Positions 17,717 to 26,895 of a DNA stretch of 26,895 bases are shown here, in pieces. The position numbers and the translations under genes are program-made. Numbering within the stretch: position 1 is the stretch's first letter; every line of letters starts with the position of its first letter. Source of the DNA: Desulfurobacteriaceae bacterium (GTDB lineage Bacteria; Aquificota; Aquificia; Desulfurobacteriales; Desulfurobacteriaceae); the NCBI GenBank assembly GCA_027064485.1, contig JAMOPR010000290.1, forward strand, positions 1 through 26,895, read 5' to 3'. The notes under the pieces were generated by a model. It was not told the DNA's origin. It did no database searches and saw nothing but the letters and a program-made list of their open reading frames with translations.

Positions 17717-18124
17717 TTAAATTTCTGTGTTCTTGAAAGTTTCCAAGATTTTTTCCATTAAAGAGTAATATTCTTTCAATTTCGGAAGGATTAAATCAAC
17801 CAGTTCTCTCCTATAAACGTGAGATAGGTAATTTCTGCTATCAAGCATTTCAATGGCTGACTCATACTCTTCGTAAGTTAAGTAGTTTAATTGAAAAAGC
17901 GTTTTAATAACCCGTTTAGGAGAAGCTACATCTATCCCTTCTTTATCTCTCAAAAATTCTTTTGCTGTTTTCCAGAATAGTTCAAAACACATCTCAAACT
18001 TTTGAATCTGTCCGCTTTCTATAACATCTCTTATTTCTTGTGGAAAATCTGACAAATTTATTTTTAATGCTTTAGAAAAATCTCTTAATGCCTTCTCAAA
18101 TTCCTCAAGTTTTCTTACAGCCAT
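17717..18124 (-). CDS. HEPN-domain toxin / nucleotidyltransferase-substrate-binding protein (HI0074 family)
   Basis: The 135-residue all-helical protein has the HI0074/HepT pattern: RKLEEFEKALRDFSKAL, EMCFELFWKTAKEFL, and the HEPN motif R97-x4-H102-x-Y104 (RNYLSHVY). In studied HEPN/MNT pairs this motif is the RNase active site, and the Tyr is the residue adenylylated by the partner to silence it. Its start overlaps the MNT gene by ten bases, the usual arrangement of the pair. The stop is 12 bases before the end of a repeat element, which is followed by dnaE. Toxicity is inferred from the family, not shown by the sequence. Confidence 0.87.
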   Translation of the reverse strand: MAVRKLEEFEKALRDFSKALKINLSDFPQEIRDVIESGQIQKFEMCFELFWKTAKEFLRDKEGIDVASPKRVIKTLFQLNYLTYEEYESAIEMLDSRNYLSHVYRRELVDLILPKLKEYYSLMEKILETFKNTEI

Positions 18125-18444
18125 CGGATTCCTTCCTTTTTAATAATTTCCTTCATTTCTTCTGGTAGCAGGTCAAAATTCAAAATATCCGCTTCAAAAG
18201 GAACTATACTTTCTTCAAGTTTATCTTCTAACTGCCACCTGAACTTTCTAAATTCTTTTTCAGAAAGACCGGAAACAGCTATATCCACATCCGAATGGCG
18301 TTTAAAATCCCCCCTTGCTCTTGACCCAAATAGATAGACTTTGCAGCATTTTCCCTTTAGGAGAGAAACAACCAATTCTTTAAACTTCTCAAGAAAGTCT
18401 TCTTCTTTTTTATAGTCTATCTGTTTATTAACTTTTAATACCAA
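18115..18444 (-). CDS. MNT-type nucleotidyltransferase (antitoxin of HEPN/MNT pair)
   Basis: Minimal nucleotidyltransferase, 109 residues from the start chosen here. It has the full active site: GS at 40-41, ten residues, then D52-V-D54 (GSx10DxD), and a third acidic site near D86 (EADIL). Family members AMPylate the HEPN partner. I prefer the TTG at 18444, which has AAGAGG six bases upstream. The longer frame from an ATG at 18531 has a poor ribosome site, and its first residues are translated from the repeat at 18492-18532. It overlaps the HEPN gene by ten bases. Confidence 0.85.
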   Translation of the reverse strand: MVLKVNKQIDYKKEEDFLEKFKELVVSLLKGKCCKVYLFGSRARGDFKRHSDVDIAVSGLSEKEFRKFRWQLEDKLEESIVPFEADILNFDLLPEEMKEIIKKEGIRWL

Positions 18445-18491
18445 CGAATACCTCTTAGATAAGTTTGGCGAAACAATAAAATAAATGATAT

Positions 18492-18532
18492 AAAAATCCC
18501 CCGAGACTCTCCAACCAACCCAACTTACCATT
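18492..18532. repeat. AAAAATCCCCC-type repeat element (copy upstream of the toxin-antitoxin pair)
   Basis: Begins AAAAATCCCCC, contains CCAACCAACC and ends CTTACCATTA. It has the same orientation and layout as the copy at 17670, with two to three bases of length difference. Together they bracket the 0.8 kb MNT/HEPN module. Confidence 0.5.
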
Positions 18533-18671: not shown

Positions 18672-19595
18672 GTGAAGAATTCAAAACTGCTCGATTGGAC
18701 GTTTGAGAAAGTATCTTTTGCTTCTGCATTATTACTCTTAATTGTTCTTTTCGCGTTGTTTGTGGTTCTCTACAAAGAATCATCTCTATCCATTCACACC
18801 TTTGGTATCTGGAAGTTTATTACCTCAAAGGTCTGGAATCCTCCGCTTGAAAAGTTTGGTGGTGCGCCTGCTATTTTTGGAACGATAGTAAGCACGATAA
18901 TTTCAATATTTATCGCCGTTCCCGTTGCCATAGGAATAGCAATATTCCTTACAGAAGTTGCTCCTCCTTTCCTAAAAACTCCTGTTGGCGTTGCAATAGA
19001 ACTTTTAGCAGCTATTCCTTCCATCATTTACGGTATGTGGGGACTTTTCTACTTTGCTCCTTTTATGAGAGATAAACTGCAACCGGTCATTCATGCAACT
19101 TTAGGTAAACTCCCTGTTATAGGAGAGTGGTTCTCCGGCTACACTCCGGGTATAGGGCTTTTAACGGCTTCTATCGTTCTTTCGATAATGATTCTTCCCT
19201 TTACTGCTGCCATTTCAAGGGATTCCTTCAATATGGTGCCCGATATTTTAAAAGAGTCAGCTTACGCTTTAGGAGCAACTAAATGGGACGTAATGAAAGA
19301 CGTAGTTATACCTTACGCAAAAATGGGCGTTATAGGCGGTATTATCCTTTCTTTGGGTAGGGCTTTGGGTGAAACGATGGCTGTCACATTTGTTATGGGC
19401 AACCAGCCTGTAATTCCCCAATCTCTGTTAGAACCTGCTACTTCTATTACCGTTACCCTTGCCAACGAATTTACAGAAGCCGATACAGACCTTTACCTTT
19501 CAAGTCTTTTCTATCTTGCGCTGATACTTTTTGCTCTGAGTTTTGTCGTAATAGTTATCGGCAAATTCCTCTTTTTGAAAAAAGTAGAGAGGTAA
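18672..19595 (+). CDS. pstC: phosphate ABC importer permease PstC
   Basis: One of two inner-membrane channel subunits of the high-affinity phosphate importer. The 307 residues contain about six membrane segments. The family stretch PSIIYGMWGLF is present, as is the ATPase-contacting EAA-type loop ESAYALGATKWDVMKDVVIPYA followed by GRALGETMAVTFVMGN. Translation begins with GTG, with GGAG seven bases upstream. It is followed by pstA after three bases. No pstS precedes it; the upstream gap holds only the Pho-box-like repeat and the short repeat element. Expression is probably induced by phosphate starvation. Confidence 0.95.
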   Translation: MKNSKLLDWTFEKVSFASALLLLIVLFALFVVLYKESSLSIHTFGIWKFITSKVWNPPLEKFGGAPAIFGTIVSTIISIFIAVPVAIGIAIFLTEVAPPFLKTPVGVAIELLAAIPSIIYGMWGLFYFAPFMRDKLQPVIHATLGKLPVIGEWFSGYTPGIGLLTASIVLSIMILPFTAAISRDSFNMVPDILKESAYALGATKWDVMKDVVIPYAKMGVIGGIILSLGRALGETMAVTFVMGNQPVIPQSLLEPATSITVTLANEFTEADTDLYLSSLFYLALILFALSFVVIVIGKFLFLKKVER

Positions 19596-19598
19596 CCT

Positions 19599-20441
19599 GT
19601 GGATGCTTTTAAAAGAAGGAAGTTAGCTAATGCGGTAGTTCTCCTGCTTTCTACTGCGGCAGCTCTTTTTGGAATAATGTGGTTGTTTTGGATACTGGGA
19701 GTTCTTCTTTACAAAGGATTCTCTACGCTGTCGCTGGAAGTTTTTTTAGGGAATCCTCCATCGCCCGGAGATAATACGGGAGGTCTCAAGCATGCAATAG
19801 TGGGACAAACGTTAATCGTTCTTACTGCTACGATAATTGGCGTCCCGCTTGGTATATTGGCTGGCACTTACCTTTCCGAATACGGCAAGAATAGTAAGTT
19901 GGCAAACTTTATAAGGGATATGTCTGATGTAATGATGAGCGTTCCTTCCATAGTTGTGGGAACGTTTATATATGCTATTTTGGTTAAGCCGGTAGGGCAC
20001 TTCATGGGATTTGCCGGTGCTCTGTCTCTTGCCGTTATGATGATACCCATAATACTTAGAACCACCGACGATATGCTTAGAATGGTGCCTCCTGAGTTAA
20101 GAGAAGCGGCTTATGCTCTTGGAGCAACGAAGTTTAAAGTTATAAAGGATGTTGTTTACCGTTCGGCAATAACCGGCATTTTAACCGGTGTCATTCTCGC
20201 CGTAGCAAGGATAGGTGGAGAAACAGCTCCCCTTCTCTTTACATCGTTTAACAACAACTTCTTTACTCTTGATATGACTCAGCCTATGGCATCCCTTACG
20301 GTTACCATGTATGATTATGCTATGAGTCCTTACGAATACTGGCAGAAGCTTGCTTGGGCAGCGGCTATAATTCTCACCTTTGGCGTTTTGGGAGCAAATA
20401 TACTGGGAAGAATTATGACGCAGTGGAAGTTCAAAAAGTAA
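19599..20441 (+). CDS. pstA: phosphate ABC importer permease PstA
   Basis: Partner of PstC in the phosphate channel. The 280 residues show about six membrane segments, with PSIVVGTFIYAI, the EAA-type loop REAAYALGATKFKVIKDVVYRSA, and ARIGGETAPLLFTSF, a PstA hallmark. The start codon is GTG with GAGAGG upstream, just after the pstC stop. The C-terminus ends in a short basic tail (MTQWKFKK). It is followed by pstB after nine bases. Confidence 0.95.
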   Translation: MDAFKRRKLANAVVLLLSTAAALFGIMWLFWILGVLLYKGFSTLSLEVFLGNPPSPGDNTGGLKHAIVGQTLIVLTATIIGVPLGILAGTYLSEYGKNSKLANFIRDMSDVMMSVPSIVVGTFIYAILVKPVGHFMGFAGALSLAVMMIPIILRTTDDMLRMVPPELREAAYALGATKFKVIKDVVYRSAITGILTGVILAVARIGGETAPLLFTSFNNNFFTLDMTQPMASLTVTMYDYAMSPYEYWQKLAWAAAIILTFGVLGANILGRIMTQWKFKK

Positions 20442-20450
20442 GGAGGAGTA

Positions 20451-21230
20451 ATGGCTTACATTATAGAGCACGGTTTAGCTCCTAAGATAACAGTTGAAAA
20501 TCTTAACTTTTACTACGGCGATAAGCACGTTTTGAAAAATATTTCTTTTAAAATACCCGAAAATAAAATAACGGCACTTATAGGACCTTCCGGTTGCGGT
20601 AAAACTACGCTGTTGAGATGTTTTAACCGTATGCATGACCTTTATCCCGGTAACAGGTATGAAGGGAAAATAATTCTTGATGGAGAGAATATTTTAGAGC
20701 CGAAGTATGACCTTATTAAGTTAAGGACCCGCGTTGGAATGGTGTTTCAAAAGCCGACTGCTTTTCCTATGTCTATTTTTGACAACGTTGCTTACGGTTT
20801 GAGGCTTAAGGGTATAAAGAACAAAAGTGAACTTGAAGATAGAGTAGAAAAAGCTCTAAAGGATGCTGCTCTTTGGGATGAAGTGAAGGATAGGCTTAAT
20901 GCTCCTGCTTCTGGGCTTTCTGGAGGGCAGCAGCAGAGACTTTGCATAGCCAGGGCAATAGCAGTTGAACCGGAAGTTTTGCTTTTTGACGAACCCACAT
21001 CTGCTCTTGACCCGATTTCTACTGCGAAAATAGAAGAGTTGGTTGTTAGCTTTAGGGGTAAGTTGACCATAGTGATTGTAACCCACAATATGCAACAAGC
21101 TGCCAGGGTTTCGGATTTTACTGCATTTATGTATTTGGGGGAATTGATAGAGTTTAACAAAACAGAAGAGATGTTTATTAAACCGAAGGAGAAGTTGACA
21201 GAGGATTACCTCACTGGAAGGTTTGGTTAA
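20451..21230 (+). CDS. pstB: phosphate ABC importer ATPase PstB
   Basis: Cytoplasmic ATPase of the phosphate importer, 259 residues. Motifs are Walker [10 protein letters not shown] (45-53), the PstB-typical [10 protein letters not shown]-loop [12 protein letters not shown], signature [14 protein letters not shown], Walker [14 protein letters not shown] and H-loop [10 protein letters not shown]. It ends with LTGRFG, typical of PstB. AAGGAGG precedes the ATG. No phoU or pstS follows. The next gene is nuoA after 145 bases, and no terminator is apparent in that gap. Confidence 0.97.
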
Positions 21231-21375: not shown

Positions 21376-21711
21376 ATGCTTTACGATTTTGTAGTATTTG
21401 TAGTTGTTATTACAATTGTTGCTCTTTTGATTTGGCTTATGTCTGTAGCGATAGCTCCCAAGAATCCGCATCCTGTTAAAGAAGATACCTACGAGTGTGG
21501 TTTGCCGGCTCCTGAACCTATCATTTCCAGCGTTAATTTTCAGTATTACTTCTACGCCATAATATTTATAGCTATGGATATAACCGGAGTTTTCTTCGTT
21601 CTTTACACTATAGGTGCCGGTAATCCTGCCTACGGTTGGGTTTTCGTTCTATTTGCTCTTCTTTTAATGGTTCCCCTTTCTTACGTAATGCTTGGAGGAA
21701 AATTGGAATGA
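21376..21711 (+). CDS. nuoA: complex I-like subunit A
   Basis: Small membrane subunit at the junction of the peripheral and membrane arms, 111 residues with three membrane spans. The hydrophilic loop carries the conserved Cys (EDTYECGLPAPE), and FQYYFYAIIFIAMDI matches the second span. In most NuoA proteins this span reads FDxE; here it is MDIT, so the Asp is kept but the usual Glu is replaced by Thr. It is the first gene of the cluster, with GGAGAGAGG before the ATG. Its TGA overlaps the nuoB start (ATGA). Confidence 0.9.
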   Translation: MLYDFVVFVVVITIVALLIWLMSVAIAPKNPHPVKEDTYECGLPAPEPIISSVNFQYYFYAIIFIAMDITGVFFVLYTIGAGNPAYGWVFVLFALLLMVPLSYVMLGGKLE

Positions 21712-22189: not shown

Positions 22190-22657
22190 ATGCTGGAGGA
22201 GATAAGGAAAATAGTTGAAGAGGAGTTTGAGCTTCAAGCGGAGAGTTTTGATACTAACGTTCTTTTAATTAGGTGTAGTAGAGGGAAATTGAAAAAGCTT
22301 ATGAATACGTTGAAATCGCAAGGGTTTAATTATCCGCATACTATCTCGGTAGTTGATTATACTCCTAAAGGTAAGGGTTTTGAGGTTAATTACATATTGG
22401 AAAACTTGGTTTTTAAGAAGATGGTTGTTGTAAGAGTGGAACTTTCTGAAGATGATTTGTCGATTCCTACCGTTAGCGATGTATTTCCTGCTTTCCAGCC
22501 TCATGAAAGGGAATGCTGGGAGATGTTTGGAATTAACTTTGTGGGTAATCCAAGACTTGAGGTAATGCTTTTACCGGAATGGGCAGAGGGCTTGTTCCCG
22601 TTGAGGAAGTCTTACGACTTTAAAAAGCACAGAAAACCCTCTAAGGAGAAAAAATAA
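22190..22657 (+). CDS. nuoC: complex I-like subunit C (30 kDa)
   Basis: Peripheral-arm scaffold subunit that packs on NuoD. I chose the ATG at 22190, since AAGGGG lies seven bases before it; a TTG one codon upstream is possible. It has 155 residues: an N-terminal alpha/beta part (SVVDYTPKGKGFEVNYIL) and the signature IPTVSDVFPAF, HERECWEMFGINF and LFPLRKSYDF. Compared with the usual ...GHPDLRR...PLRKDY signature, the His after the F-x-G is Asn (VGNPRL) and the final Asp is Ser, so the sequence is a divergent member. Its stop overlaps the nuoD start by one base. Confidence 0.87.
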   Translation: MLEEIRKIVEEEFELQAESFDTNVLLIRCSRGKLKKLMNTLKSQGFNYPHTISVVDYTPKGKGFEVNYILENLVFKKMVVVRVELSEDDLSIPTVSDVFPAFQPHERECWEMFGINFVGNPRLEVMLLPEWAEGLFPLRKSYDFKKHRKPSKEKK

Positions 22658-23814
22658 TGAATCAAATGGGTTACTCCTTTACGATAGAGAGCAGGAAGGA
22701 AGTAAGCGGTGAAGACCTTGGGTTGTTAAAGGAGAAGATTCTTCAACTTAACTGGGGTGTTCAGCATCCTGCTTCTGGTCCTATGAGGTTGAAGGTATGG
22801 ATTGATGGGGATGTTGTTGTAAAGGTTGACCCCGATATAGGTTACGTGTTGAGGCTTTTGGAAAAGTTAGTTGAGTATAGAACATGGATAAATGCCATTG
22901 TAAACGTTGAAAGAGCTTGCTTTATGGATGATTTTGGCACCATGGTTGGTTATTCTATTGCGGCTGAGAAGATAGCTGGAGTTGAAGTTCCTAAGAAGGC
23001 TGATTACGTGAGAGTTATCCTTGCAGAAGGCGGCAGGATAGTTAGCCACTTGATAGGGCTTGGAAGTTTTGTTGGTGTTATGGGTGTTCATACTGCTATG
23101 CAGTGGGCTTTGATAGCGAGGGAGAAATTTTTAGATGCGTTTGAGACTCTTTCTGGACAGAGGATAGCTACCTCTTCTATTGTTCCCGGAGGTGTGAGAT
23201 ACGAGCCTACCGGAAAGTTTGTAGAGAAGATGGTAGAAGCTGTGGATTTTCTGGAGAAGGAGTTTATACCCAGATATGAAGAAGCTTTTATTGATAATCC
23301 TACTTTGAAGCTTAGAAGTGTAGGTGTTGGAGTTGTCACTAAGGAGAAAGCTGTAGAGCTTGGAATGGCTGGTCCTCCTTTAAGAGCTTCAGGGGTTGAA
23401 TCCGATATTAGAAAGGATTATCCGTATGCTGCTTACGGCGATTTCAAGTTTAAAGTGGTAACCAAAAGTGAAGGGGATTGTTACGCAAGGTATTTGGTTT
23501 TGTGGGAAGAGATACAGGAATCGGCAAAGATTATCAGGCAGGCAATAGAAGGACTTCCTGAAGGTGATTATAGAGTGAAGTTTCCCGTTAAGTTACCGCC
23601 CGGAGAAGCTTACGTTAACGTAGAGTGGGCAAGGGGAGCTTTCGGATTTCATCTGGTTAGTGACGGTGGCACAGGTCCTTACAGATTGAGGATGAGGGCT
23701 CCTTCTTTCTGCAATTTGTGGGCTATACCGGAGATTATGAAAGGTGTTAAACTGGCTGATGTTCCCGTTATTTTCTCTTCCCTTTATATGTGCCACGGTG
23801 ATATAGACAGATAG
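22657..23814 (+). CDS. nuoD: complex I-like subunit D (49 kDa), with altered active-site residues
   Basis: Homologue of the hydrogenase large subunit that forms the quinone cavity with NuoB in complex I. It is 385 residues and full length, with IGYVLRLLEKLVEYRTW, LRASGVESDIRKDYPYAAY, GAFGFHLVSDGGTGPYRLRMRAPSF and the complex I-type end GDIDR. By-eye comparison with T. thermophilus Nqo4 shows two key differences. The segment QHPSTHGVLRL is QHPASGPMRL here (H37 kept, the quinone-ligand His38 of Nqo4 absent). The RMDY segment with the ligand Tyr87 is RACF (F89). C88 and C379 lie at or near the first Cys of each hydrogenase CxxC pair. Substrate specificity is therefore open. Confidence 0.9.
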   Translation: MNQMGYSFTIESRKEVSGEDLGLLKEKILQLNWGVQHPASGPMRLKVWIDGDVVVKVDPDIGYVLRLLEKLVEYRTWINAIVNVERACFMDDFGTMVGYSIAAEKIAGVEVPKKADYVRVILAEGGRIVSHLIGLGSFVGVMGVHTAMQWALIAREKFLDAFETLSGQRIATSSIVPGGVRYEPTGKFVEKMVEAVDFLEKEFIPRYEEAFIDNPTLKLRSVGVGVVTKEKAVELGMAGPPLRASGVESDIRKDYPYAAYGDFKFKVVTKSEGDCYARYLVLWEEIQESAKIIRQAIEGLPEGDYRVKFPVKLPPGEAYVNVEWARGAFGFHLVSDGGTGPYRLRMRAPSFCNLWAIPEIMKGVKLADVPVIFSSLYMCHGDIDR

Positions 23815-24779: not shown

Positions 24780-25301
24780 ATGAATGAAGTAAAAGAGTTG
24801 GCTTTATTGCCTTTTAGAGTTTTTCAGAAAGTCGTGAAAGTGTCAAAATCTATGTTTGAAAGGAAAGCAACGGAGATTTGGTGGGACAGAGGTATAAAAA
24901 GGGACCTGCACTTTAGAGGTAAGCACGTAATAAAAGCAGAGCTGTGTATAGGTTGTTCTTTGTGTGCAAGGTCTTGCCCGGTTAACTGTATAGAAATGGT
25001 TCCAACTGGCGTGAAAAAGCCAAGAGCTGTTCCGAAGGTAAGAGCAAGTGAATGCATTTTTTGCGGTCTTTGTGAGGATGCTTGTCCGGTGAAACCGCAG
25101 AAGGCTATTCAACTTACGGATAATTACAGTATGCTGATTGAACCTGGCACGTGGGAAAAACTGAATGGCTACGTGTTTGAACCCGAAAACCTTGAAGCTG
25201 CGATAGAGAAAGCGAAAAAGATGGAAGAGTTGATAGAGAAGAAAAAACAGGAAGCTTTGAAGAAGAAACAACAGCAGGAGAAGAAGGATGATGGGCAGTA
25301 A
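24780..25301 (+). CDS. nuoI: complex I-like subunit I (two 4Fe-4S clusters)
   Basis: Ferredoxin-like subunit that carries electrons to N2 through clusters N6a and N6b. The 173 residues have ligands C56/C59/C62/C66 and C92/C95/C98/C102, each in a CxxCxxCxxxCP pattern, plus an N-terminal amphipathic region that would lie against the membrane arm. The C-terminal 35 or so residues are an unusual Lys/Glu/Gln-rich helix, probably a coiled coil. AAGGAGAGAGG precedes the ATG. The 3' end overlaps nuoJ by 14 bases. With no NuoEFG encoded here, NuoI could be where an external donor such as ferredoxin docks. Confidence 0.93.
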   Translation: MNEVKELALLPFRVFQKVVKVSKSMFERKATEIWWDRGIKRDLHFRGKHVIKAELCIGCSLCARSCPVNCIEMVPTGVKKPRAVPKVRASECIFCGLCEDACPVKPQKAIQLTDNYSMLIEPGTWEKLNGYVFEPENLEAAIEKAKKMEELIEKKKQEALKKKQQQEKKDDGQ

Positions 25302-25773
25302 CGTTTACTTTTGGATTATATATGCTGTAATAGTAGTTTCAGCCATTGTTGCTCTTGAAGCCACTTCGCTTTTATGGGCTGCTATTTCCTTTGTTATTCT
25401 CCTTTCAGAGATAGCTATCGTTTATTTTGGTTTGGGTATGCCCGTTTTGGGAGGCGTTCAACTTGCCGTATACGCTGGTGGAGTGACGATACTCGTTCTG
25501 TTTGCCATAATGCTGGTAGGTGAAAGTTATAAGAAACCTTCTGGTAAGGCGGTTACTGCTATTGTTTTGAGTTTGTTGATAGTGTTGATAGGTGTAGGCG
25601 TTTCCTTCCTTAGCGCTTTAGATACTTTCCCCTATAAAGTTTACTCTACCGAGTTTCTGGGAACGATATTCGTTAGATACTACTCAATTTTTACCATTGT
25701 CCTTGGATTTATAGTGGCAGCAATGCTTTATCTCGGTAACGCTATTATTGGTAAGAAGAGGGAGGCAAAATAA
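25288..25773 (+). CDS. nuoJ: complex I-like subunit J
   Basis: Hydrophobic membrane-arm subunit, 161 residues with about five spans. The third span contains the flexible family stretch VQLAVYAGGVTILVLFAIMLVG, which in known complexes helps couple the arms. It starts at ATG 25288 inside nuoI (GGAG seven bases upstream); the next codon is also ATG. The C-terminus is a short basic tail. It is followed by nuoK after one base. Confidence 0.93.
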   Translation: MMGSNVYFWIIYAVIVVSAIVALEATSLLWAAISFVILLSEIAIVYFGLGMPVLGGVQLAVYAGGVTILVLFAIMLVGESYKKPSGKAVTAIVLSLLIVLIGVGVSFLSALDTFPYKVYSTEFLGTIFVRYYSIFTIVLGFIVAAMLYLGNAIIGKKREAK

Positions 25774-26084: not shown

Positions 26085-26895
26085 ATGGTAGAGCTTGCAT
26101 ATTTGAACATTGCAATTTTTTTCATTGGAAGTATTCTCGCGTTTTTGGTCGGTAGGTTTACGGAAAGGTGGAATTCTTTTTGGGTTGCAGTGCTGACAGG
26201 ATTGATAGGTTTCACTATTTCCTGCTACATAGCTGTTAACATGGGAGAGCGTCCTATAGTTCACCAATTTGAGTGGTTTAGATTCGGACATTTTTCTGTT
26301 CCTTTCGGTATTTTCGTTGACCATTTGTCCATTGTTATAGCCCTTATAGCTACGGGTATTGGATTTTTAGACATCATTTTCTCGAAAGGTTATATGGAGG
26401 ACGACGAATCTCCTCACAGGTATTACTTTGAAAAACTGTTCTTTATCGGTTCTATGGTGGGATTGGTTTTTGTTAGCAATTTAGTCGGGCTTTACATATT
26501 CTGGGAAGGTGTTGGTCTTTGTTCTTATCTCCTTATAGGTTATTGGTATTGGAAGAAGAGTGCTGCAGAAGCTGCACTGAAAGCCTTTGTAATGACAAGG
26601 TTTGGTGATGTGTTTATGCTTGCCGGTATTTTGGTTGCGTGGGTATTTTTGGGAACTATTAACTTTCAAGATTTGAACGCTCTTGCCGTTATAGGAGCTT
26701 TTAGCGTTAAGTTGGGATTGATAATAAGCGTTTTGATATTTATAGGTGCAATAGGAAAATCCGCCCAATTCCCCCTCTTTCCGTGGCTTTTAGATGCCAT
26801 GGAAGGTCCTACAACGGTTTCTGCTCTCATTCACGCTGCAACAATGGTTAACGCCGGTGTTTACTTAGTTGCGAGGATGTTCCCGTTCTTCGAAT
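26085..26895 (+). CDS. nuoL: complex I-like subunit L (antiporter-like proton pump; 3' end cut by window edge)
   Basis: Start of the largest antiporter-like subunit of the membrane arm. About 270 residues are visible of the usual 600 or more. Key residues are in place: the Glu in LYIFWEGVGLCSYLLIGYW, the Lys in IGKSAQFPLFPWLLDAMEGP, and the His in SALIHAATMVNAGVYL. The frame is open to the last base, so truncation is only by the window. It starts one base after nuoK. nuoM and nuoN would be expected to follow. Confidence 0.93.
   Translation, partial: MVELAYLNIAIFFIGSILAFLVGRFTERWNSFWVAVLTGLIGFTISCYIAVNMGERPIVHQFEWFRFGHFSVPFGIFVDHLSIVIALIATGIGFLDIIFSKGYMEDDESPHRYYFEKLFFIGSMVGLVFVSNLVGLYIFWEGVGLCSYLLIGYWYWKKSAAEAALKAFVMTRFGDVFMLAGILVAWVFLGTINFQDLNALAVIGAFSVKLGLIISVLIFIGAIGKSAQFPLFPWLLDAMEGPTTVSALIHAATMVNAGVYLVARMFPFFE

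Follow-up and report, generated by a model that had tools for sequence, protein, structure and literature searches.

It has long been asked how the protonation of quinone drives the proton pump of respiratory complex I. The models give a central place to His38, Tyr87 and Asp139 of the catalytic subunit NuoD (Nqo4 numbering) and to the Glu channel. Methanophenazine is the substrate of the related subunit FpoD, from the F420H2 dehydrogenase of the Methanosarcinales. Here we analyse a nuoD gene (22657..23814) and the operon around it in a window of 26,895 nucleotides, i.e., the whole stretch of DNA analysed (Desulfurobacteriaceae bacterium, assembly GCA_027064485.1, contig JAMOPR010000290.1). In the encoded NuoD the three residues have been lost.

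A catalytic subunit that has single cysteines at two sites (C85 and C385) and nothing equivalent to His38 or Tyr87 is already known as MbsL of the membrane-bound sulfane reductase (MBS). Its C85A/C385A mutant had an activity comparable to the wild type, and its catalysis employs a cluster with three Cys ligands only (PMC7684303; all papers are cited here from those parts of their text that were available to us). Several complexes of the Nuo type without NuoEFG have also been described. Ferredoxin was proposed as donor for one in Desulfitobacterium (PMC11238625), and reverse electron transport as the role of a partial complex I in Nautilia, from which nuoE, F, G and K are missing (PMC2628731). 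A Nuo of the C. jejuni type goes with flavodoxin (PMC6682613). Thermovibrio ammonificans has two NADH dehydrogenase clusters; the second, which lacks nuoEFG and is kept in Caminibacter mediatlanticus and Desulfurobacterium thermolithotrophum, was regarded as a duplicate (PMC5441870). For strain HR11, a separate nuoGFE was counted together with nuoABCDHIJKLMN as one menaquinol-oxidising NADH dehydrogenase, and mbs was listed as absent (PMC12724263). By their gene content, both this cluster and the second one of T. ammonificans, presumably Theam_1488-1498, would be of the type found in the window (window-type from here on). An MbsL tree took in Aquificota rows, among which window-type proteins may be called MbsL (PMC10356935). 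Our literature search, which covered few subscription papers and no supplementary files, found no description of this pocket in bacteria.

We propose that the window NuoD is the catalytic subunit of an 11-subunit complex I (nuoABCDHIJKLMN), independent of NADH and linked to ferredoxin, which acts on menaquinone through a rebuilt pocket, a reading in which we have about even confidence. Judged from its sequences, the complex is a conserved variant of complex I, in which an MBS-like rebuilt catalytic pocket sits on an otherwise complex-I body.

The catalytic pocket of NuoD

22657..23814, + strand, nuoD, 385 aa without internal stop, PF00346 (E = 6.6e-77)
22918-22920, + strand, nuoD codon for C88
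22921-22923, + strand, nuoD codon for F89
22927-22929, + strand, nuoD codon for D91
23785-23787, + strand, nuoD codon for Y377
23791-23793, + strand, nuoD codon for C379
23800-23802, + strand, nuoD codon for D382

The window NuoD was aligned with 105 close relatives, 29 canonical NuoD, 7 FpoD, 10 Korarchaeum-type rows (from P0106-P0120; P0116 is Korarchaeum), MbsL, an Asgard protein and hydrogenases. The canonical set is a narrow one, made up of Aquificota loci, one Hydrogenedentes metagenome-assembled genome (MAG) and three PDB chains. Neither of the quinone-headgroup residues of complex I is found in the window NuoD, and here the alignment confirms a preliminary description of this DNA. In the motif QHPASGPMRL a one-residue deletion aligns onto Nqo4 His38, a site that is a gap in 105/105 relatives and His in 29/29 canonical rows, while Tyr87 corresponds to Phe89 (Phe in 105/105 relatives, Tyr in 29/29 canonical rows). 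C88 takes the place of Nqo4 Asp86 (Cys in all 105 relatives, Asp in all 29 canonical rows) and C379 that of Val403, with Cys in the 104 complete relatives (P0029 is truncated), a conservation that the preliminary description had named as a sign of function. The three NuoD motifs co-occur in 104/105 relatives. Because all 105 relatives have the deletion as well as C88, F89 and D91, the pocket pattern is, as read from the alignment, a clade trait and not chance.

The Asp139 site, which is D or E in 29/29 canonical rows, holds N (48), V (23), T (21) or A (12) in the relatives, with one not printed. Asp401 is also replaced, by Tyr377, a new residue of the window-type NuoD that had been overlooked. 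It is found in 102/105 relatives (P0102 has His, P0103 has Asn and P0029 is truncated), against Asp in 29/29 canonical rows, and Asp is also present in MbsL, in Ech, in the four printed FpoD rows and in 9/10 Korarchaeum-type rows (Tyr in P0120). The foreseen objection that the cavity might hold another His and Tyr applies by half, as Tyr377 and His145 (present in 89/105 relatives) are candidates at the sequence level.

Compared with an Ech-type hydrogenase (RVCGICSH ... DPCFSCLDR), C88 and C379 fall exactly on the first Cys of each CxxC pair, as had been noticed by eye, and D91 and D382 on the second. Of these two acids only the former sets the protein apart. D91 is Asp in 105/105 relatives, in 10/10 Korarchaeum-type rows and in the Asgard row, its equivalent in MbsL is Glu, and an acid is present in 0/29 canonical rows and 0/7 FpoD. 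D382 is found in 104/104 relatives, but Asp or Glu also occurs there in 28/29 canonical rows. On this alignment D91, not D382, is the distinctive acid of the window-type NuoD. A hydrogenase or NiFe centre is ruled out, the window NuoD having CFMD and CHGD instead of the two CxxC of group 4 NiFe hydrogenases, i.e., the second Cys of each pair is missing. It was also suggested that the centre might be a modified one. In such a centre C88, C379, D91 and D382 would hold a metal or form a redox-active disulfide at the former NiFe site, and two Cys and two acids, all conserved, do occupy the four NiFe ligand positions. We consider this very improbable and found no support for it: the same two Cys are accompanied by E and D in MbsL, whose Cys double mutant is active (PMC7684303), and the acid at D382 belongs to canonical NuoD too. 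Given that the cysteines are known from MbsL and FpoD and that the activity of the double mutant is close to that of the wild type, they are by themselves no argument for a metal or for a role in catalysis. Their presence both in FpoD, where Tyr is kept, and in MbsL suggests that they are leftovers common to known enzymes.

The likeness to FpoD is partial. All seven FpoD have a single Cys at both positions and no His38 (Pro in 7/7), but unlike the window NuoD they keep Tyr87 (7/7), have no deletion and no acid at 91, and branch apart. Phe89, the separate clade and the score with the NCBIfam FpoD model (296 vs. 600 bits) all place the window protein outside Fpo. With the Korarchaeum-type rows it shares the His38 deletion, the lack of Tyr87, D91 and W150 (10/10), although these rows have C379 in 0/10 and C88 in only 3/10. 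MbsL of Pyrococcus furiosus (6u8y) has the same deletion, no Tyr87, an acid at 91 and W150, and its C85 and C385 are the equivalents of C88 and C379; it differs in the Asp at the position of Y377. Among sequence models, the NCBIfam NuoD equivalog TIGR01962 scores the window NuoD below its cut-off (322 vs. 459 bits), and the broader NF004739 (cut-off 360) accepts it (376) and fails the Sulfurovum relative P0101 (328). Its leading PDB matches were Nqo4 (258 bits), cyanobacterial NdhH (244) and MbsL of P. furiosus (236).

Ancestry of NuoD and NuoH

A NuoD tree of 55 rows was rooted on hydrogenases. The first branch is Fpo (weak, 85/57), after which canonical complex I (14 rows, 100/98) separates from a larger clade (31 rows, 99/95) formed by MbsL, the Asgard row, the Korarchaeum-type rows and the window clade (100/99). 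To the question of grouping raised in the preliminary description, the tree answers that this NuoD lies outside canonical complex I, apparently with MbsL. When the three motif stretches were left out, the larger clade kept a support of 86 in the Shimodaira-Hasegawa-like approximate likelihood ratio test (SH-aLRT) of a quick tree. Alternatives to the MbsL grouping are only marginally worse. In approximately unbiased (AU) tests, in which MbsL is a long branch, constraining the window clade with canonical rows gave p 0.037, with canonical plus Korarchaeum-type rows p 0.040, and with canonical rows plus Fpo p 0.058, which is not rejected.

NuoH gives a different picture. Seven clade and ten canonical rows split together from MbsM, MbhM, HycD and Ech at 100/99, which puts NuoH within complex I. 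As the two trees disagree, NuoD being on the MBS side and NuoH on the complex I side, the complex is by this phylogeny either a mosaic or the kind of complex from which MBS acquired its catalytic arm. The idea that it sits between hydrogenase and complex I is upheld in part, since the Cys pattern fits it, but the same Cys are found in FpoD and MbsL and the trees are those of a mosaic.

The NuoD branch speaks for another reading, in which the complex would be a bacterial sulfane (polysulfide) reductase similar to MBS. Its catalytic subunit, of the MBS type, would sit on the membrane arm of a complex I, and electrons from ferredoxin would pass through N2 to polysulfide in a hydrophobic chamber. 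We regard this as unlikely, but as the rival that has to be taken seriously. It is favoured by the clade with MbsL and its persistence without the motif columns, by the shared deletion, Cys pair, acid at 91 (D here, E in MbsL), W150 and lack of Tyr87, and by features of NuoB and NuoH described below. Vent relatives of Sulfurovum oxidise sulfur, and the window-type clade includes Sulfurovum, which weighs on the other side, as does the merely marginal AU test against the canonical grouping (p = 0.037). In favour of this reading, the papers do not make clear which enzyme reduces sulfur or thiosulfate in two of the hosts (PMC12724263, PMC5441870), but the former lists mbs as absent in HR11.

Other subunits of the complex

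What stands most against a plain MBS mechanism is NuoB. This subunit has Cys at 20, 23, 24, 88 and 118, among which C23, C24, C88 and C118 are the four N2 ligands of complex I with their tandem pair. The motif CSGCC is found in 14/14 clade loci, window included (the clade loci counted for NuoA, NuoB and NuoH are all Aquificota). A match of residues 5-150 on 10-155 of MbsJ gives an offset of 5 and sets, by that offset only, C20, C23, C88 and C118 on C25, C28, C93 and C123. C24 is the additional complex-I-type Cys that MBS lacks, and C20 is conserved in 14/14 clade loci, where the 11 canonical rows have Gly or Ala (by eye). With all four complex I ligands in NuoB, N2 would have no open three-Cys site of the kind needed for catalysis in MBS (PMC7684303).

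In NuoA the YECG loop is kept, whereas the canonical FDLE-type motif has lost its second acid (MDIT) in the 14 clade rows compared with 10 canonical rows (by eye); all 14 PDB sequences matched by NuoA are complex I or NDH. NuoH has V196 and K231 at the sites of Nqo8 E213 and E248 (numbered from the printed alignment), which we take to be part of the Glu channel. Val and Lys are found in 14/14 clade loci against Glu in 10/10 canonical loci, the same sites being Met and His in MbsM and Val and Glu in E. coli. NuoH and MbsM are thus alike in lacking both Glu. Nevertheless, the window complex differs from MBS in the second tandem Cys of NuoB, in NuoA, in a NuoH that groups with complex I instead of an MbsM-type anchor, and in its complex I gene order. 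Plain MBS is ruled out by NuoB C24, NuoA and NuoH.

The presumed pump Glu and Lys of NuoK, NuoL, NuoM and NuoN are retained. In its overall make-up, NuoH clade and pump subunits the complex is similar to the canonical complex I with 14 subunits that occurs in its own family (L050), which differs in having QHPSTHG and RVDY, and nuoEFG inside the operon. The window genome has more NuoL/M-like antiporter proteins (G000:C263:1735-6631 and G000:C25:1188-2396), with ca. 31% identity to NuoL.

Operon, electron donor and acceptor

21376..21711, + strand, nuoA, 111 aa, PF00507
21708..22178, + strand, nuoB, N2 cluster subunit with motif FCSGCC, 156 aa, PF01058
22187..22657, + strand, nuoC, 156 aa, PF00329
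23823..24767, + strand, nuoH, 314 aa, PF00146
24780..25301, + strand, nuoI, two 4Fe-4S motifs, 173 aa, Fer4 families
25288..25773, + strand, nuoJ, 161 aa, PF00499
25775..26083, + strand, nuoK, 102 aa from the likely ATG, PF00420 (open reading frame listed from TTG at 25748)
26091..26895, + strand, nuoL, 5' part only, ending at the contig end (remainder on G000:C287 of the same assembly)

The start of nuoK was set by comparing relatives. The window thus holds the order nuoA-B-C-D-H-I-J-K-L(part), with nuoD between nuoC and nuoH, and relatives show the full operon of 11 genes (nuoA-D and H-N), the complex I gene set without the nuoEFG of a 14-subunit NADH dehydrogenase. Content and order are those of the Desulfitobacterium Nuo without NuoEFG (PMC11238625), a comparison made by description only; the window NuoD lacks the His and Tyr of the 29 canonical rows and its clade is separate. 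The closest named NuoD, from Desulfurobacterium pacificum (91% identity), supports a Desulfurobacteriaceae origin. In a D. thermolithotrophum-like genome, a transposase-like open reading frame of 435 residues (L048:5523-6830, by eye) separates nuoB from nuoC.

Genes for electron donors and acceptors were looked for in 11 of the 23 genomes that own a window-type NuoD, and in G012 as a non-owner. MqnC, a marker of menaquinone, was above its cut-off in 11/11 owners tested. PF02621 and UbiA were each found in 10/11, the miss being the incomplete window genome both times, and are unspecific, UbiA occurring in 14/14 controls and PF02621 in Thermotoga and Sulfolobus as well. All owners examined thus probably have menaquinone at their disposal, and these genes support, but do not prove, a quinone as the substrate. 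The different acceptor or unusual quinone suggested in the preliminary description may still apply, MqnC favouring a quinone. For a polysulfide reductase, the presence of MqnC is a further point against.

The complex might instead be an ordinary complex I that works with menaquinone, a duplicate of the NADH dehydrogenase borrowing NuoEFG from elsewhere, and the pocket changes would then be neutral. A duplicate is the published view for the T. ammonificans cluster (PMC5441870) and an NADH dehydrogenase that for HR11 (PMC12724263). A detached nuoEFG does remain in the window genome and in its congener G001 (L078:3757-7945 and L079:73-3807), and NuoH of E. coli is also without E213. We find this reading distinctly unlikely. 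A NuoF-type protein (PF01512) was not found in 7/11 owners tested (G008 and six f5 genomes), and a second NuoD of canonical type was not found in the window genome (assembly 83% complete) or in the congener. On this gene content, the complex does not seem to need NuoEFG. Furthermore, the replacements are fixed in 105/105 relatives, which argues against neutral drift. In HR11, NuoGFE was quantified, but only NuoC and NuoI were detected among the other eleven subunits (PMC12724263).

The detached nuoEFG resembles the sets in canonical operons of relatives and is adjoined by a divergent ferredoxin-like gene, in L078 also by a regulator-like gene. In G003 the single NuoF-type protein (643 residues) adjoins a CO-dehydrogenase-like gene (named by eye), and NuoE/F/G-like proteins adjoin such a gene at L080:6220-11409 and L084:726-5852 (by eye). 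It would be easy to take this NAD-linked module for a part of complex I. The window genome also encodes a NuoD-like protein without NiFe Cys or quinone residues (RVSGDN ... NLSYSGND; L006:9248-10222, on G000:C85), which adjoins a hydrogenase-like small subunit and looks like part of a hydrogenase-related complex.

Distribution among genomes

In a survey of 136 genomes of the phylum (E <= 1e-80), a window-type NuoD was found in 23, of which 17 belong to the same family and 6 to a second family (f5). Within the family the owners are 17 of 22 genomes, the others being four of genus g7 and one that is 62% complete. Twelve of the 17 have a second NuoD, only 38-41% identical to the window NuoD, and it is canonical (HG and DY residues) in all seven loci read (L050, L053-L058). 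This low identity and the separate branch in the NuoD tree rule out a recent duplicate of the canonical Nuo. Genus g7 has a different Nuo without EFG (L051:13927-18946), with an apparent extra antiporter-type gene between nuoK and nuoL (by eye).

Relatives P0042-P0105, mostly CD fusions, are taken for a Campylobacterota branch because of their four named members (Sulfurimonas, Nitratifractor, Sulfurovum and Hydrogenimonas); P0251-P0253 (YCVACC or YCIACC) may belong to it. Cultured owners, by name, are D. pacificum, D. thermolithotrophum and Sulfurovum riftiae. A scan of viral contigs with P0053 found no relative, and among plasmids P0101 had matches in 241 records, none of which reached 60% identity, the 20 listed being all Sinorhizobium meliloti. 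A Thermotogota-labelled MAG (L042) has a Desulfurobacteriaceae-type NuoD (85% identity), probably through a binning or naming error.

Possible mechanism and significance

In the ferredoxin-linked complex that we propose, electrons would enter from ferredoxin at NuoI, pass to a four-Cys N2 of complex I type and be exchanged with menaquinone in the pocket. There the deletion stands in for His38, Phe89 for Tyr87, residues that are not acids for Asp139 and Tyr377 for Asp401. C88, D91 and C379 would lie alongside, and the binding of the substrate or the delivery of protons would fall to Tyr377, C88 or D91. The complex would either pump protons upon ferredoxin oxidation or, driven by the proton motive force, transfer electrons from menaquinol to ferredoxin, which would then serve CO2 fixation. 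By its ancestry shared with MbsL, the pocket would be a third kind beside those of classical complex I and Fpo.

Several points weigh against this proposal. NuoD sides with MbsL, a subunit of a polysulfide reductase, and not with the quinone enzymes; His38, Tyr87 and Asp139 are lost (the first two as in MBS), and NuoH has lost E213 and E248 as has MbsM. FpoD, which acts on methanophenazine, keeps the Tyr that the window NuoD does not have. Some membrane-arm charges shared by canonical complexes differ (NuoL 232, NuoM 231, NuoN 282 and 284, NuoJ 141), and the ferredoxin partner is one that we infer. Where a second NuoD is present, a quinone role would not be forced on the window-type protein. 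The literature examined, seen in part, yielded no enzyme assay of a window-type complex, nor relatives with demonstrated ordinary menaquinone reduction.

A more radical reading, which we hold to be unlikely, is that of a complex I widespread in vent bacteria that has given up quinone. An MBS-type catalytic subunit on a full proton pump would hand the electrons of ferredoxin to polysulfide or to some other acceptor that is not a quinone, NuoD His38, Tyr87, Asp139 and Asp401, NuoH Glu213 and Glu248 and the second NuoA acid having been dismantled jointly, and redox energy would drive the pump without quinone protonation.

This is a natural, conserved complex of cultured species, menaquinone makers where tested, which has kept the main pump residues and lost those of quinone coupling. 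Whether it reduces quinone and still pumps would be a test of the need for those residues. The published account, in which the second Nuo cluster is a duplicated NADH dehydrogenase, is thereby corrected: what was hitherto taken for an ordinary enzyme of heat-loving vent bacteria has a pocket that resembles an archaeal sulfur-reducing enzyme. The matter bears on CO2 fixation too, since the way in which these autotrophs come by their reduced ferredoxin would depend on a pump linked to ferredoxin.

Neighbouring genes

Upstream in the window (17717-18531) lies a nucleotidyltransferase-like and HEPN-like pair, presumably of the kind seen in toxin-antitoxin pairs, which is also present in L052. A pstCAB-like phosphate-transport operon (18672-21230, by eye) directly precedes nuoA, an order also found in L049, L052 and L083.
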